Shown: in pieces, positions 5,499 through 63,530 of the stretch | Numbering within the stretch: the first letter of the stretch is position 1 | Layout of the letters: every line of letters starts with the position of its first letter | Assembly: GCF_900156865.1 (NCBI RefSeq) | Contig: NZ_LT732529.1 | Coordinates: forward strand, 2,916,460-2,980,459 | Source: Litchfieldia sinesaloumensis | GTDB taxonomy: Bacteria; Bacillota; Bacilli; Bacillales; Bacillaceae_L | Direction of reading: 5' to 3' | Length of the DNA: 64,000 nucleotides | Notes under the pieces: generated by a model | Seen by the model: only the letters and a program-made list of their open reading frames with translations | The model's database searches: none | Told to the model about the DNA's origin: nothing | Program-made: the position numbers and the translations under genes

Positions 5499-5906
5499 TT
5501 AACCTCTCTTTTTAAAATGTGGGCTCAGTTCACTCCAGACATCAAACCGATTGCCGTCAGGGTCACTAAAGACAAAGTTATACCCAGCATGACCACGATC
5601 TTCAATGTCTCCAACCGTTATATCCCGTTCCATAAATTCTTGATGTACATTCTCTAAAGCTTGTAAACCATCAACCTCAAAGGTTAGTGAAAAACGCTCA
5701 TTCCCCTTGGCGTCAATAAAATTTGCGGTTTGACCTGGTTGTGATGCGACTAGAAAAAAGCTTTGATTAGCTAACTCAATAATGGCCTTGTCCTCATCAA
5801 TATAATTTAGCTGCCCACCTAGTTTTTCTGTGTACCAAGCTGCAGATTGCTCTACGTTTATAACAGGAAGATATGTGGTTCCAACACGTAATAATTTCTG
5901 TGACAT
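5499..5906 (-). CDS. VOC (glyoxalase/bleomycin resistance) family protein
   Basis: 135 residues with two beta-alpha-beta-beta-beta modules. The first begins TTYLPVINVEQSAAWYTEKLG; the second ends in the hallmark FSDPDGNRFDVWSE. VOC proteins bind a metal and act as glyoxalases, dioxygenases or drug-binding proteins; the specific role is not visible. A good GGAGG site precedes the ATG. First gene of a unit with the isochorismatase-like and TPR genes. Confidence 0.85.
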   Translation of the reverse strand: MSQKLLRVGTTYLPVINVEQSAAWYTEKLGGQLNYIDEDKAIIELANQSFFLVASQPGQTANFIDAKGNERFSLTFEVDGLQALENVHQEFMERDITVGDIEDRGHAGYNFVFSDPDGNRFDVWSELSPHFKKRG

Positions 5907-6007
5907 TGGTGTGTGCCTCCTTTATACAACAGAATTTCAATATGTACTCTATTCGAGTTTTATACAGATATCCCTTTTATTACATGAAAATTTTCCCAAC
6001 AAAAAAA

Positions 6008-19401: not shown

Positions 19402-19818
19402 TCATTGTTGTTTTAATCGTTCTAATTCTGTCTCCACATTGAAAACCCGTTTGTTTAAGACTTCTGCTTTGTTTTCGAGATTTTTATTCATTCGCTCTAA
19501 CATGGCAACAATATCTTGAGGTTGACTAAGTTCAATCCGATGAACAGCTGCTTTTATTTCTAGTATTTCGCTTTTCAGTTCCGTTTTTACTGCTGAAATT
19601 TCATCTTTTAAGTCTATTCTCACTGCCGAGATTTCATCTTTTAAGTCCACTTTCACTACCGAGATTTCATCTTTTAAGTCCACTCTCACTACCGAGATTT
19701 CATCTTTTAAGTCCACTCTCACTGCCGAGATTTCATCTTTTAAGTCCACTTTTACTGCCAAGATTTCATTTTTCAATTCATCTTGTCCATTAATAATTTG
19801 TCTTAATAGTTCTTCCAT
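19402..19818 (-). CDS. 11-residue-repeat coiled-coil protein
   Basis: 138 residues. Residues ~20-90 are built from six or seven near-identical 11-mers of the form VDLKDEISAVR, encoded by an almost perfect 33-bp tandem repeat at about 19560-19770. The 11-residue (hendecad) periodicity predicts a long, slightly right-handed coiled coil. The C-terminal third has a normal heptad pattern ending NVETELERLKQQ. No membrane segment or signal. Similar short repeat proteins occur in bacilli, with no known function. The DNA repeat makes unit-number variation likely. Confidence 0.75.
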   Translation of the reverse strand: MEELLRQIINGQDELKNEILAVKVDLKDEISAVRVDLKDEISVVRVDLKDEISVVKVDLKDEISAVRIDLKDEISAVKTELKSEILEIKAAVHRIELSQPQDIVAMLERMNKNLENKAEVLNKRVFNVETELERLKQQ

Positions 19819-33086: not shown

Positions 33087-33475
33087 TGCGTCTTGGTACT
33101 ATGAAGACCTGGGCGTAGCGGCTGCATGAGGCTTCAGGTCTTCATCTATCTTATGATGTCATCTTTGCGCCGGTTGACGGTGGCTTCGGGTCTTCATCGC
33201 ACTTATGATGACAGCTTCTTGGCGGGCCGCCGGGGACTTCGGGTCTTCATCGCACTTATGATGACAGCTTCACGGCCGTTGCCGGTGCCTTCAGGTCTTC
33301 ATCAGCCTTATGATGACAGCTTCGCGGCGGTTGCTGGTGGATTTGCGTCTTCATCTATCTTATGATGACAGCTTTGCGGCGACATCCGGTGGATTCGAGT
33401 CTTCATCTACCTTATGAAGACATCTTCGCGACGACTTCGTATAACTTCAGGTCCTCATCCCCCGGCACTATCCGG
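33087..33475. repeat. 52-bp tandem array (family II), ~7 units
   Basis: TCTTCAT starts at 33139, 33191, 33244, 33296, 33348 and 33400, and TCCTCAT at 33452: a period of 52 bp with one 53. The unit is TTCGGGTCTTCATC...CTTATGATGACAGCTTCGCGGC. Each unit can fold GTCxTCAT with ATGAxGAC; the last full unit pairs perfectly over eight bases. A more degraded unit precedes at ~33091. The array fills the gap between the SDR gene and the gene at 33526. Confidence 0.85.
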
Positions 33476-37062: not shown

Positions 37063-38490
37063 ATGAGTAAGTATACGGATCCTGCTAAAGAACTTCTTGA
37101 ACACATCGGTGGGAAAGAGAATGTAGCAGCTGTTACACATTGTGCAACAAGAATGCGCTTTGTTCTAAACGATCCAAAAAATGCAGATATAGAAAAAATC
37201 GAAGGCATTGGACTTGTAAAAGGTACGTTTACACAGGCTGGCCAATTCCAGGTTATCGTAGGAAACGAGGTATCCTCTTTCTATAACGAGTTCGTCAAAC
37301 ATGCTGGAGTACAAGAGTCTAGCAAGGATGAAGCAAAGGTTGCTGCTAAACAAAATATGAACTGGCTGCAACGCTTAATGGGTCACTTAGCGGACATTTT
37401 CACACCGCTCATTCCAGCTCTTGTTGTTGGAGGTCTGATTCTAGGTTTCCGAAACGTAATTGGGGAAATTAACCTTGTTGATAATGGTACAAAGACAATT
37501 GTGGAAACCTCTCAATTCTGGGCTGGCGTGCACGCATTCCTTTGGTTAATAGGGGAAGCAATATTCCACTTCCTACCAGTCGGAATTACATGGGCGGTTA
37601 CGCGTAAAATGGGTACATCCCAAATCCTTGGGATTGTTTTAGGTATCACGCTAGTTTCTCCTCAATTGCTAAATGCATATGGGGTTGCAAGCTCAGATGA
37701 AATACCAGTTTGGGACTTTGGTTTCGCAACAATTGAAATGATTGGTTATCAAGCACAAGTTATTCCGGCTATTCTAGCGGCGTTTGTACTTGTCTATTTA
37801 GAACGCTTTTTCCGTAAGATTTCACCAAACTCTATTTCAATGATTATTGTTCCATTTTTTGCTCTAGTACCTACAGTACTAATTGCACATACAGTTCTTG
37901 GTCCGATCGGTTGGACAATTGGTTCTTGGATTTCTGATGTTGTCTACACAAGCTTAACATCGGCATTTGGTTGGTTATTCGCAGCTATCTTTGGATTTGC
38001 GTACGCACCACTTGTTATTACTGGATTACACCATATGACAAATGCAATCGACCTTCAATTGATGAGTGAATTCGATGGCACGAACCTATGGCCAATGATT
38101 GCACTTTCCAATATTGCACAAGGTTCTGCAGTTCTTGCAATGATCTTTATTAATCGTAAAAATGAAGAAGAAAAACAAGTTTCCATCCCAGCATGTATTT
38201 CTTGTTACCTCGGCGTAACAGAACCAGCAATGTTCGGTATTAACTTGAAATACGGCTTCCCATTCCTAGCCGCAATGATCGGTTCAATGATAGCTGCAAT
38301 CATCTCAGTAGGAAGCGGCGTTATGGCGAACTCAATCGGGGTTGGTGGAATTCCAGGAATTCTTTCCATCCAAGCTGCACACTGGTTAATGTTTGCGATT
38401 GCGATGCTAGTTGCGATTGCGGTCCCATTCATTCTAACTGTTATCTTTGCAAAAGCGAATGTGGGCAAAATTTCATTCGGCAAAAAATAA
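37063..38490 (+). CDS. treP: PTS trehalose-specific EIIBC component
   Basis: 475 residues. The EIIB domain has Cys27 in VTHCATRMRFVL. The EIIC domain follows with about ten membrane segments and the conserved TGLHHMTNAIDLQLM. It lacks EIIA, so EIIA of the glucose system would phosphorylate it. Takes up trehalose and releases trehalose-6-phosphate. GGGGG upstream of the ATG. Controlled by two TreR sites and a cre-like site. treA, normally next, is absent. Confidence 0.92.
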   Translation: MSKYTDPAKELLEHIGGKENVAAVTHCATRMRFVLNDPKNADIEKIEGIGLVKGTFTQAGQFQVIVGNEVSSFYNEFVKHAGVQESSKDEAKVAAKQNMNWLQRLMGHLADIFTPLIPALVVGGLILGFRNVIGEINLVDNGTKTIVETSQFWAGVHAFLWLIGEAIFHFLPVGITWAVTRKMGTSQILGIVLGITLVSPQLLNAYGVASSDEIPVWDFGFATIEMIGYQAQVIPAILAAFVLVYLERFFRKISPNSISMIIVPFFALVPTVLIAHTVLGPIGWTIGSWISDVVYTSLTSAFGWLFAAIFGFAYAPLVITGLHHMTNAIDLQLMSEFDGTNLWPMIALSNIAQGSAVLAMIFINRKNEEEKQVSIPACISCYLGVTEPAMFGINLKYGFPFLAAMIGSMIAAIISVGSGVMANSIGVGGIPGILSIQAAHWLMFAIAMLVAIAVPFILTVIFAKANVGKISFGKK

Positions 38491-38586: not shown

Positions 38587-39303
38587 ATGAATAACAAGTA
38601 TCTAACAATCTATAGTGAGTTAGTAGATGAAATTAAAAGTGGTAACATTCAGGCCAATAGCCTTTTGCCTTCCGAAAATGAACTAAAAGAATCCTATAAT
38701 ACCTCCCGCGAAACAATTCGAAAAGCGCTCAACCTTCTTTCCCAAAATGGGTATATTCAAAAAATGAAGGGCAAAGGTTCCATAGTAATCGATGTGAATA
38801 AGTTTGATTTTCCCGTTTCTGGACTCGTGAGCTTCAAGGAACTAGCGGAGAAAATGGGGGACAAGCCGAAAACCTTTGTCCATGACCTTTCCGTTGGTAA
38901 GCCTGATACGTTTATTAAGCAACAGCTCCAGCTTTCAAATAAAGATCAAGTATGGAAGGTCGTCCGCGTAAGGGAAATGGGCGGCGAGAAAATTATCCTG
39001 GACAAGGATTATATTTCGAAATCTTATGTCCCTGAACTCACGAAAGAAGTTTGTGAGGATTCTATATATGCTTTTATGGAGAATGAACTAAAGCTCACAA
39101 TCAGTTTTGCCAAAAAGGAAATCACCGTAGTGGAGCCAACTGATGAAGATCGAGAGTTACTAGATTTGGATGGGTTTCATAATGTCGTAGTTATCAAGAA
39201 CTTTGTGTATTTGGATAATGCGAGTCTATTTCAATACACCGAATCCCGCCACCGCCCTGACAAATTCCGCTTCGTCGACTTTGCGCGCCGGACGCACGTG
39301 TAG
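38587..39303 (+). CDS. treR: GntR-family trehalose operon repressor
   Basis: 238 residues, the size of Bacillus subtilis TreR. N-terminal winged HTH NKYLTIYSELVDEIKSGNIQANSLLPSENELKESYNTSRETIRKAL, then a UTRA effector domain ending FQYTESRHRPDKFRFVDFARR. Predicted to bind trehalose-6-phosphate and the TGTATATACA operators upstream of treP. TGGAG precedes the ATG. Confidence 0.92.
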   Translation: MNNKYLTIYSELVDEIKSGNIQANSLLPSENELKESYNTSRETIRKALNLLSQNGYIQKMKGKGSIVIDVNKFDFPVSGLVSFKELAEKMGDKPKTFVHDLSVGKPDTFIKQQLQLSNKDQVWKVVRVREMGGEKIILDKDYISKSYVPELTKEVCEDSIYAFMENELKLTISFAKKEITVVEPTDEDRELLDLDGFHNVVVIKNFVYLDNASLFQYTESRHRPDKFRFVDFARRTHV

Positions 39304-39342: not shown

Positions 39343-40370
39343 GGTTCTGGTTTGCACTTGGAGTTAGTTAGGAGATTGTGGGGGTGCTGGCACTCTTTGC
39401 GGGTTCGCACTTGGGGTTTTTCAGGAGATTGCTAACTCGATTGCACGCCTTGCGGGTTCGCACTTGGAACTTTCTAGGAGATACCGTACCCGATTCCACC
39501 ACTTGCGGGTTCGTACTTGGAACTTTTTAGGGGATACCGTACCCGATTCCACCACTTGCGGGTTCGTACTTGGGATTTTCTAGGAGATTGCGAACTCGAT
39601 TGCACGCCTTGCAGGTTCACACTTGGAACTTTCTGGGAGATACCGTACCCGATTCCACCACTTGCGGGTTCGTACTTGGAACTTTCTGGGAGATACCGTA
39701 CCCGATTCCACCACTTGCGGGTTCGCACCTGGAACTTTCTGGGAGATACCGTACCCGATTCCACCACTTGCGGGTTCGCACCTGGAACTTTCTAGGAGAT
39801 ACCAAACCCGATTCCACCATTTGCGGGTTCGTACTTGGGACTTTCTAGGAGATACTGAACCCGATTCCACCACTTGCGGGTTCGCACTTGGAGCTTTCTA
39901 GGAGATTGCTAACTCGATTGCACGCCTTGCGAGTTCGTACTTGGAACTTTCTAGGAGATACTGAACCCGATTCCACCACTTGCGGGTTCGCACTTGGGAC
40001 TTTCTAGGAGATTGCGAACTCGATTGCACGCCTTGCGAGTTCGCACTTGGAACTTTTTAGGAGATACCGTACCCGATTCCACCACTTGCGGGTTCGCACT
40101 TGGAACTTTCTAGGAGATACCGTACCCGATTCCACCACTTGCGGGTTCGTACTTGGGATTTTCTAGGAGATTGCGAACTCGATTGCACGCCTTGCGGGTT
40201 CGTATTTGGAACTTTCTAGGAGATACCGTACTCGATTTCACCACTTGCGGGTTCGTACTTGGAACTTTCTAGGAGATACCAAACCTGATTCCACCATTTG
40301 CGGGTTCACTCTTGGAACTTTCTAGGAGTCACCGAACCCGCATACACGCCTTGCTAGCCCGCTTATAGAA
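39343..40370. repeat. 53-bp tandem array (family I), 18 full units
   Basis: GGGTTCG (or its variants) begins at 39401 and every 53 bp thereafter up to 40302, with no insertion or deletion; a degraded unit lies at either end. Two linked subtypes occur: type A with TACCGTACCCGATTCCACCA and type B with TTGCGAACTCGATTGCACGC. Five of the eighteen are B. Units can form a hairpin across the boundary (GCGAACTCG with CGAGTTCGC). It lies between the convergent treR and FMN reductase genes. Confidence 0.9.
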
Positions 40371-40381
40371 ATCACTTGCCC

Positions 40382-40407
40382 AAAAGGGGTCCAACTGGAC
40401 CCCTTTT
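40382..40407. terminator. terminator beyond the 53-bp array
   Basis: AAAAGGGGTCC (40382-40392) pairs with GGACCCCTTTT (40397-40407) with a 4-base loop and T run. It can stop transcription of the array from either side. Confidence 0.85.
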
Positions 40408-40427
40408 TCATTTGTCCCCAAAACAAA

Positions 40428-40462
40428 AACAGGACGAACCAATAGAGGTCCATCCTGTTTCT
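40428..40462 (-). terminator. terminator of the FMN reductase gene
   Basis: AAACAGGA (40428-...) and TCCTGTTT enclose a loop of ~20 bases containing further weak pairing; on the minus strand it follows the stop at 40470. Confidence 0.55.
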
Positions 40463-40469
40463 TCAATGA

Positions 40470-41063
40470 TTAGCGTACTGTTTTTAATGCAGTGCTCCAA
40501 GATACTACTTGGTCTAGCATTAGGTTAACGTTATCTAGGTGTAGATCTTGTGGTTTGAAGTCTGCACCGTTTTCGAAGTCAGTGAATAATGAAAGTGTTG
40601 GATGTGTACGAACGTCCGCGATCATTAATTCACCCATGATTCCACGTAAGTGTTCAGCAGCACGTGCACCACCAGTTGAACCGTAGCTTACGATACCAGC
40701 AGCTTTGTTGTTCCAAGCTTCACGAGCTAGGTCTAATGCGTTTTTCAATGCACCAGTGATAGAGTGATTATATTCTTGAACGATGAATACGAATCCATCA
40801 AGGCTAGCTAATTTTTCATTCCATGCTCCGATTCCAGGTGCATCTGCTTCACCTAAGAATGGTAATTTGAAGTCTGCGATATCTACGATTTCGTAGTTAG
40901 CATCTCCACGCTTATCAGCGATTTCCTTTACCCATGCTCCTACTTGAGGACTTACGCGTCCTTCACGAGTACTACCTAAAATGATACCAATGTTTAATTT
41001 TTCGTTTGACATTACTTTTTCCTCCTTTTGTTGATTACCAAAAAGCTTATCTAGTAAACCCAT
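40470..41063 (-). CDS. NADPH-dependent FMN reductase family protein
   Basis: 197 residues as drawn. Flavodoxin-like core IGIILGSTREGRVSPQVGAWV, then EYNHSITGALKNALD and GIVSYGSTGGARAAEHLR, both FMN-contacting. Two starts have good sites: 41063 (AAAAGGAG) and 41012 (AAAGGAGG before MSNEKL). The 17 residues in front of the second, MGLLDKLFGNQQKEEKV, are an amphipathic extension unrelated to the fold. Probably a quinone or azo reductase. Confidence 0.85.
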   Translation of the reverse strand: MGLLDKLFGNQQKEEKVMSNEKLNIGIILGSTREGRVSPQVGAWVKEIADKRGDANYEIVDIADFKLPFLGEADAPGIGAWNEKLASLDGFVFIVQEYNHSITGALKNALDLAREAWNNKAAGIVSYGSTGGARAAEHLRGIMGELMIADVRTHPTLSLFTDFENGADFKPQDLHLDNVNLMLDQVVSWSTALKTVR

Positions 41064-51612: not shown

Positions 51613-51641
51613 TGGGACAAGGGGACAGGTTCTTTGTCCCA
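51613..51641. repeat. REP-like palindrome
   Basis: TGGGACAAGGGGACAGG followed by TTCTTTGTCCCA; ends complementary over eight bases. Confidence 0.72.
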
Positions 51642-51654
51642 GTAGAAGTTTGAA

Positions 51655-51810
51655 GGAGTTTTCACTGGTGCGACTGCTGTGTTCGGGATTTCATCCTGCT
51701 TATGAAGGACTTTTCGCGCAGCCAACTGCTCCGTTCGGGGCTTCAGCCAACTTATGAAGGACTTTTCGCGGGGGCGACCGCCACTTTCGGGACTTCATCG
51801 ACTCCCATAC
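51655..51810. repeat. 52-bp tandem array (family II), ~3 units
   Basis: TATGAAGGACTTTTCGCG occurs at 51701 and 51753, 52 bp apart, each preceded by TTCGGG-x-CTTCA or a close form. A third partial copy begins near 51788. The same unit and hairpin (TTCAT...ATGAA) as the array at 33.1-33.5 kb. Located between the EamA start and the yibE-like start. Confidence 0.8.
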
Positions 51811-62793: not shown

Positions 62794-62853
62794 CTATTTT
62801 AACGATATCCCCGGGTGCTCCCGTAACAACTTGTACCCTCATTTTATACCATA

Positions 62854-63530
62854 ATGCCAAAATATGCCTACCAAAAAGGGAAGGGGTCTAGAGATATAAG
62901 GAATTGGATGCGAAATCCCGACTTAGTTTGTCGCATTCACTTCGGCCGGTGCGACTTATGGGACACAGATTTCAGATTATGGGACACTGCGTTTGATTTA
63001 TGGGACACTGGGTTCATTTTATGGGACACAAATCAAATTATATGGGACATTAACGTAAAGATATGGGACAAACCCGCAAATGCCAAAATATACTTACCAA
63101 AAAGGGTAAGGGTCTAGAGATATAAGGAATTGGCTGCGAAATCTCGACTTAGTTTGTCGCATTCACTTCGTCCGGTGCGACTTATGGGACACAGATTTCA
63201 GTTTATGGGACACTGCGTTTGATTTATGGGACACTGGGTTCATTTTATGGGACACAAATCAGATTATATGGGACATTAACGTAAATATATGGGACAAACT
63301 CGCAAATGCCAAAATATACTTACCAAAAAGGGTAAGGGTCTAGAGATATGAGGCATCGGATGCGAAATTCCGACTTAGTTTGTCGCATTCACTTCGGCCG
63401 GTGCGACTTATGGGACACAGATTTCAGTTTATGGGACACTGAGTTTGATTTATGGGACACTGGGTTCAGTTTATGGGACACAAATCAAATTATATGGGAC
63501 ATTAACGTAAAGATTTGGGACAAACCCACA
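62854..63530. repeat. 226-bp direct repeat x3 with nested 21-bp units
   Basis: ATGCCAAAATAT starts at 62854, 63080 and 63306, a 226-bp period. Within each copy TGGGACA occurs six times at a 21-bp spacing (in copy 1 at 62959, 62980, 63001, 63022, 63043 and 63064). The third copy ends soon after its last unit. The copies differ by a few substitutions. Short open frames with repeated WDT arise from the 21-bp units, but 226 is not a multiple of three. Lies between the divergent response regulator and SLAP genes. Confidence 0.9.

Follow-up and report, generated by a model that had tools for sequence, protein, structure and literature searches.

What holds about a kilobase of intergenic DNA to a strict 53-bp period? 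The array that raises this question lies in a 64,000-nucleotide stretch of Litchfieldia sinesaloumensis DNA (the window; positions 2916460-2980459 of the 4.56-Mb genome), between a treR-like regulator gene and a convergent reductase gene (Table 1). The original prediction described 18 tandem units without an indel, in two subtypes and closed by a strong terminator, and held that their stem-loops are selected and that the array could act either as a long repeated RNA or as DNA bound at every fifth turn. The layout was confirmed, with a 53-bp tandem array at 39343-40376. TRF called 17.8 copies at 39397-40340 (85% match, 0 indel, score 1286), and a profile search returned 19 matches, with every spacing 53. 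In the phase starting at AGG, the 19 units, one more than predicted, span 39370-40376, the outermost two being degenerate. The changes that distinguish the second subtype, type B, do come as a linked block, AACTCGATTGCACGCC, present in 5 of the 19 units, and both the convergent gene arrangement and the predicted terminator behind the array are as claimed. Among named relatives, the treR protein is closest to those of Bacillus timonensis, Fredinandcohnia onubensis and other Bacillus strains (89-92% identity over the best segment).

Table 1. Location of the features discussed; positions are those of the window, except in the last row
Feature	Position or locus	Strand	Basis and details
PTS EIIBC transporter, upstream of treR	37063-38490	+	Pfam
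GntR/UTRA regulator, treR-like, upstream neighbour of the array	38587-39303	+	Pfam GntR, UTRA
Family A array	39359-40376	+	19 units x 53 bp, core TGGAnnnnnnTAGGAGA..CGnACC..GGGTTCGCAC; TRF, profile matches, unit listing
First type-B unit	39423-39475	+	further type-B starts: 39582, 39900, 40006, 40165
Predicted intrinsic terminator directly 3' of the array	40382-40408	+	-16.2 kcal/mol
Hairpin predicted as a two-way terminator for the convergent reductase gene	40425-40462	.	terminator prediction
NADPH-dependent FMN reductase, convergent neighbour of the array	40470-41063	-	Pfam FMN_red
Family B array	33090-33445	.	52-bp period, TCTTCAT-N7-ATGA hairpin, 7 cores; TRF
Short family B array	51629-51797	.	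52-bp period, about 2 to 3 units; TRF
A arrays beyond a predicted terminator	L097, L098, L099, L100, L130, L144, L145, L147, L161		L098 and L099 are close copies

Several familiar classes of element did not account for the array. No reading frame runs through it: the longest listed ORF is 97 aa in about 1 kb, and 53 is not a multiple of three, which rules out a protein-coding repeat. CRISPR arrays, with identical repeats and unique spacers, were ruled out because entire 53-bp units are alike (adjacent-unit identity 0.82). The LexA (SOS) box has the motif CGAAC-N4-GTTCG; its half-sites are present in the repeats yet stand 17 or 22 nt apart, which rules out this class as well. Searches of plasmid and phage collections gave no match to the treR array, and Rfam at its gathering threshold gave none within the window.

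We compared treR sites in the window and in 9 of 17 fetched loci (L numbers). The 53-bp array was present at this site in six genomes (the window, L010, L012, L013, L014 and L024), with 7 to 19 detected units. TRF found no array at the site in L009, L015 or L016, and the treR 3' site of L011 (Bacillus sp. REN16) carries an unrelated array of 20-bp units with GATGCATATC at 5726-5938. A common core, TGGATA-n-TTAGGAGA-nn-GCGAACC, unites the 53-bp arrays, which we call family A. The sequence-only model of this family (E 1e-4) matched 7 of 60 relatives, all of the same genus; it was found in 7 of the 9 genomes of the genus searched, one with a single match, and in 6 of the 16 genomes reached through named loci. 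The model gave 96 matches in the organism's own genome, at at least 12 loci among the matches listed.

The period of family A was far better conserved than its sequence. Across 24 arrays (the six at treR and 18 elsewhere; 184 units, 6 genomes), 154 of 160 spacings between successive units were exactly 53; the other six were 52, 96, 105 (three times) and 107, and one of these amounts to the loss of 10 bp, about one turn. Array consensi were 62% alike, that is 38% diverged, and 40 units from 11 arrays aligned without a gap, units for the alignments having been cut in phase. Adjacent units 53 apart differed at 1474 positions in all, against the six irregular spacings. By comparison, aligned non-coding sequence outside the arrays at the treR loci had 35 gap openings per 471 substitutions (seven pairs sharing species; only columns with at least 60% local identity). 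Applied to the arrays, this rate predicts about 110 irregular spacings; 6 were observed, a roughly 18-fold deficit that serves as a guide rather than an exact test, the array figure comparing neighbouring units and the control comparing species.

Some related A arrays have higher-order repeats of 106 and 159 bp, indicating that units are exchanged in blocks. This part of the original prediction was therefore supported; its suggestion of gene conversion was not favoured over unequal exchange or slippage. One such array (L108, 13689-16275) lies between divergent genes, and two unit types alternate in its 106-bp higher-order repeat; one flanking gene is MerR-type (Pfam) and the other, read from L006, we take to be prfA. 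In L086, a 32-bp array of 17.7 copies (1140-1698) directly adjoins a family A array.

Two further arrays in the window belong to a second family, B, which has a 52-bp period and the hairpin core TCTTCAT-N7-ATGAAGA. Its model matched 18 of 60 relatives at E 0.001 and, at E 3e-5 with strict filters, 25 of 299 genomes and 14 of 116 genera of the order; among the fetched loci, those with B arrays came from 10 genera. Eight of the 16 genomes reached through named loci carried family B, namely the seven nearest relatives and Scopulibacillus darangshiensis. The best autocorrelation lag (range 30-329) was 52 in 25 of 27 B loci, a set chosen by matches of a 52-column model, a choice that may favour that length; the other two, L169 and L181, had no array. 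Core spacings agreed: 228 of the 274 in the range 50-54 were 52.0, with cores located by the TTCAT and ATGAA arms alone and spacings of 30-75 allowed, so that the full list includes chance pairs. One locus, L141, has the B core yet mostly a 53-bp spacing. A 5.2-kb array of 294-bp units (L126, 2613-7853; 17.8 copies, 99% match) lies near a family B array.

The main rival to a role for this spacing is a neutral or selfish minisatellite without function, its period inherited from an ancestor and kept by unequal exchange and slippage. The block exchange described above would suit such a process, as would the variable unit number at treR, the absence of the array in L009 and the different array in L011. 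Homogenisation, however, fixes a period within an array and should let separate arrays drift apart, whereas 53 is common to the 24 A arrays and 52 to 25 B loci in 10 genera. The B arrays keep their period despite a far spacer (columns 35-50) that is only 27.9% identical between arrays, versus 24.8% when shuffled, and in family A the deficit of irregular spacings also counts against this rival. We therefore regard a functionless minisatellite as unlikely, though it fares best among the alternatives.

A less probable alternative is that the array is transcribed, as a 3'-UTR or a non-coding RNA of repeated hairpins that stabilises or regulates the treR message. The treR gene lies upstream and in the sense orientation, and the array in the window, like those in L010, L012 and L013, is followed by a predicted terminator; at L024 only a two-way terminator is predicted, and at L014 none. 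In lying between a stop codon and a terminator, the treR copies are exceptional among A arrays. Because of the terminator predicted behind it, the copy in the window is probably transcribed.

The original prediction rested on a compensatory change: GAGTTCG was said to follow type-B units, so that the stem stays paired. GAGTTCG did occur in type-B units and in no others, but in 2 of the 5, and a restriction to type B among 18 units has a chance of about 0.065 (hand arithmetic), which is not significant. Type-B units with GGGTTCG still form a T·G pair. The claim that the stem stays paired did not hold, since in eight units the left arm contains CCGTAC, which places a T·T mismatch in mid-stem (a pattern count of 10 includes right-arm matches).

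Larger alignments gave no paired changes either. Over 44 units from seven loci, 76.0% of positions paired, versus 75.7% with shuffled partners, and the covariation score was 0.212 versus 0.204, so that covariation within units was absent. Among 1961 helices scored on 22 array consensi, the arms at 20-26 and 44-50 had the highest paired fraction, 73% (taken inside the unit or across the unit border), in agreement with a hairpin; their double covariation was 0.027, and other, less paired helices reached 0.162 with 56% paired. The family A arms, GCGAACC and GGTTCGC, are conserved as sequence and not as covarying pairs. In 7 of 24 array consensi the right arm is of a TCC type, which makes full pairing impossible.

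If RNA pairing were required, G·T should exceed A·C on the transcribed strand. Counted as distinct events, 72 G·T stood against 83 A·C in family A (P 0.42), and in the eight arrays with intact GTTCG arms the counts were 31 and 25. Folding of unit pairs as RNA gave a mean z of -0.14 for the sense strand and a stronger -0.66 for the opposite one (P 0.029); z fell below -3 for 2 of 24 arrays on the sense strand, as a hairpin RNA would allow, and for 2 of 24 on the other. Neither covarying pairs nor tolerance of G·U on the transcribed strand was thus found, and we reject both a structured RNA family and the selection of family A stem-loops as RNA. In family B, the covariation score of the hairpin between units was 0.303 versus 0.133 for shuffles (0/500 as high), and the number of covarying pairs (322/500) and of pair types (92/500) did not exceed shuffles, several units per array being included. 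Here too there was no strand preference (57 G·T versus 59 A·C in the 39 groups that had at least three units and were at least 70% paired), as expected for a palindrome maintained as duplex DNA or corrected from its opposite arm.

The placement of the other arrays among genes also argues against a hairpin RNA. A terminator is predicted between the end of the neighbouring gene and the array for 9 of the 18 A arrays away from treR (Table 1, last row); L148 has a weak one (-9.4) at its own downstream end, and the remaining eight have none predicted. In tandem-gene gaps, six A arrays run along the genes and five against them. With orientation mixed and many arrays beyond terminators, we reject a 3'-UTR element as the general rule, even if the window's copy may be transcribed. 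Convergent gaps held 4 of the 11 classified A arrays of the own genome (12 given), versus 29 of 361 background gaps of at least 150 bp; in other genomes they held 0 of 7 A arrays away from treR, and among B arrays (10 given, 9 classified) they held 1. L086 and L152 were dropped from this classification, one neighbour being missing. We therefore claim no general preference for convergent gaps.

We then asked whether A/T-only dinucleotide steps keep register with the helix within a unit. For these tests, 58 B groups were reduced to 37 by dropping those with fewer than four cores or lacking the core, and to 29 by removing those 75% alike; the 24 A arrays were reduced to 9. Harmonic 5 was the strongest in both families. 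In B, the steps peak every ~10.4 bp, five times per unit, with a harmonic 5 of 0.148 in the 29 non-redundant consensi versus 0.070 in control sets of equal size from the genome's non-coding DNA (0/2000 as high). It was still the strongest with the hairpin masked, at 0.086 (null 0.039; top of 500 shuffles 0.062). In A, harmonic 5 was 0.123, and 36 of 2000 control non-coding sets were as high; a 7.6-bp harmonic was nearly equal to it and, for AA/TT alone, stronger (0.168 versus 0.104). With the core masked, harmonic 5 in A fell to 0.055, inside its null. The A/T comb is clean in B and not in A. Within the B spacer, A/T steps occupy columns 42-43 in 62-69% of cases versus about 17% in columns 35-39 and 45-49, a rise present in 12 arrays of the own genus and 17 of other genera; the two columns were picked after the profile had been seen, so that the P value is descriptive. 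Ordinary non-coding DNA of the genome likewise peaks, at 10.6 bp.

Least probable of all is an enzyme that copies or inserts DNA in fixed steps, adding units of 52-53 bp, the period then reflecting mutation mechanics and not selection for phase: the constant step in both families, the lone B hairpins of L149 and L151, where the threshold used showed no array, and the B arms, palindromic without strand preference as palindrome-templated correction could make them, would suit it, but no candidate gene for it was found, the genome's two Y1-transposase matches being free of A or B repeats nearby, and it leaves the register of A/T steps in the spacers unexplained.

Strand-blind placement, the lack of an RNA pairing signal and a five-turn period together favour an element that acts as duplex DNA, and for the family A arrays the evidence points to a role in DNA shape over folded RNA. 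The reading that we prefer, with confidence a little below even, sees the treR array as a single copy of an element that acts as duplex DNA and is dispersed between genes, its five-turn units setting the same site on one face of the helix. Judged from sequence, families A and B are probably both such elements, bending or wrapping DNA together with a bound protein, and the strict periods of 53 and 52 bp fit the original suggestion of DNA bound at every fifth turn. Units held at five helical turns would repeat the same site on one face; a nucleoid-type protein or gyrase might bind or wrap the array, which would then form a curved, torsion-absorbing spacer between neighbouring genes. Unequal exchange of whole units would make arrays both longer and more uniform. 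We counted against the five-turn reading that the A half-sites, 17 and 22 nt apart, are not separated by whole turns.

A bolder proposal, which we consider possible but rather doubtful, is that the Bacilli have a chromatin-like positioning code. Unrelated families of intergenic arrays would have converged on five-turn units with A/T steps in register, each array being a platform on which gyrase or a nucleoid protein wraps the DNA, and setting a torsional boundary between genes. A period held at 52-53 bp despite sequence drift, with the A/T comb, makes a mechanistic prediction, namely helical phase. Family B is present in several genera, so that affinity methods could be used to look for a protein that recognises it.

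TRF on 60 stretches of 20 kb from the own genome and on the window found 41 tandem arrays. Of the 31 that overlap no long ORF, in 17 the period was 52 or 53 bp or lay near a multiple of it; the other 14 had other periods, some of which (153-155, 226 and 23 bp) are not whole turns, and we do not claim whole-turn periods for every tandem array. Where arrays overlapped a long ORF, 9 of 10 periods were multiples of three. The non-coding arrays included units of 153-155 bp or their doubles at L084 (6895-7215), L107 (7912-8873) and L117 (6283-6982), and three 226-bp repeats in the window (62853-63527) that hold 21-bp TTATGGGACACA units; similar GGGACA units occur in L143 at 8499 and 18147. A 33-bp array at 19589-19773 of the window lies within an ORF on the minus strand (19402-19818) and probably encodes a repetitive protein.

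Mycobacterial MIRU repeats are intergenic tandem units, often near 53 bp. In titles and abstract openings, the scope of our literature search, we found no description of A or B repeats. Among known systems, STAR elements, the nearest in layout, and REP/BIME elements come closest; neither definition fits in full. STAR elements are dispersed intergenic repeats of staphylococci, with a short conserved core of 14 bp, T(G/A/T)TGTTG(G/T)GGCCC(C/A), and a locus-specific spacer (PMC3532100). The arrays described here resemble them in being intergenic, dispersed, tandem repeats of about 50 nt with variable unit number in the same bacterial class (PMC3532100), and they too are intergenic direct repeats with a locus-specific spacer. 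We rejected membership because the core was not above chance in the window and the step length differs. At up to two mismatches, the 64 kb held 2 matches to the STAR core versus 2.34 expected, none inside the array, and in the one STAR-core array that a search of 398 genomes of the class turned up, successive units lie 61, 61, 60 and 60 bp apart, against 53 in A and 52 in B. For bacterial intergenic repeats of the STAR kind, helical phase offers a testable handle on function.

REP/BIME elements are presented as dispersed intergenic palindromic units, at times arrayed, that are proposed gyrase targets and are associated with RAYT transposases (PMC3733652, PMC2817692). A and B are likewise intergenic and dispersed, with palindrome-like arms. 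Binding by gyrase, IHF or Pol I is a further mark of REP/BIME elements. They differ in that their units stand head-to-tail at a fixed step and that their consensi have, by eye, no evident GTAG or CGTC tag. As to short palindromes, A has inverted arms without covariation and B the raised score with pair counts not above shuffles. As to RAYT, the own genome has two Y1_Tnp matches, with no A or B profile match in the surrounding 9.0 and 4.5 kb; the longer of the two carries other inverted repeats. A Y1-type transposase ORF in L184 (1093-1887; 264 aa) has 30-nt inverted repeats, GGGACGGTTCTTCTGT, on both sides and may be a mobile unit. Finally, A-tract periodicity of 10-11 bp, related to curvature, is reported as A/T steps phased with the helix in many prokaryotes (PMC3431218, PMC516772). 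What is described there is a genome-wide statistical trend, whereas the repeats analysed here form discrete tandem arrays in which the unit itself measures five turns.
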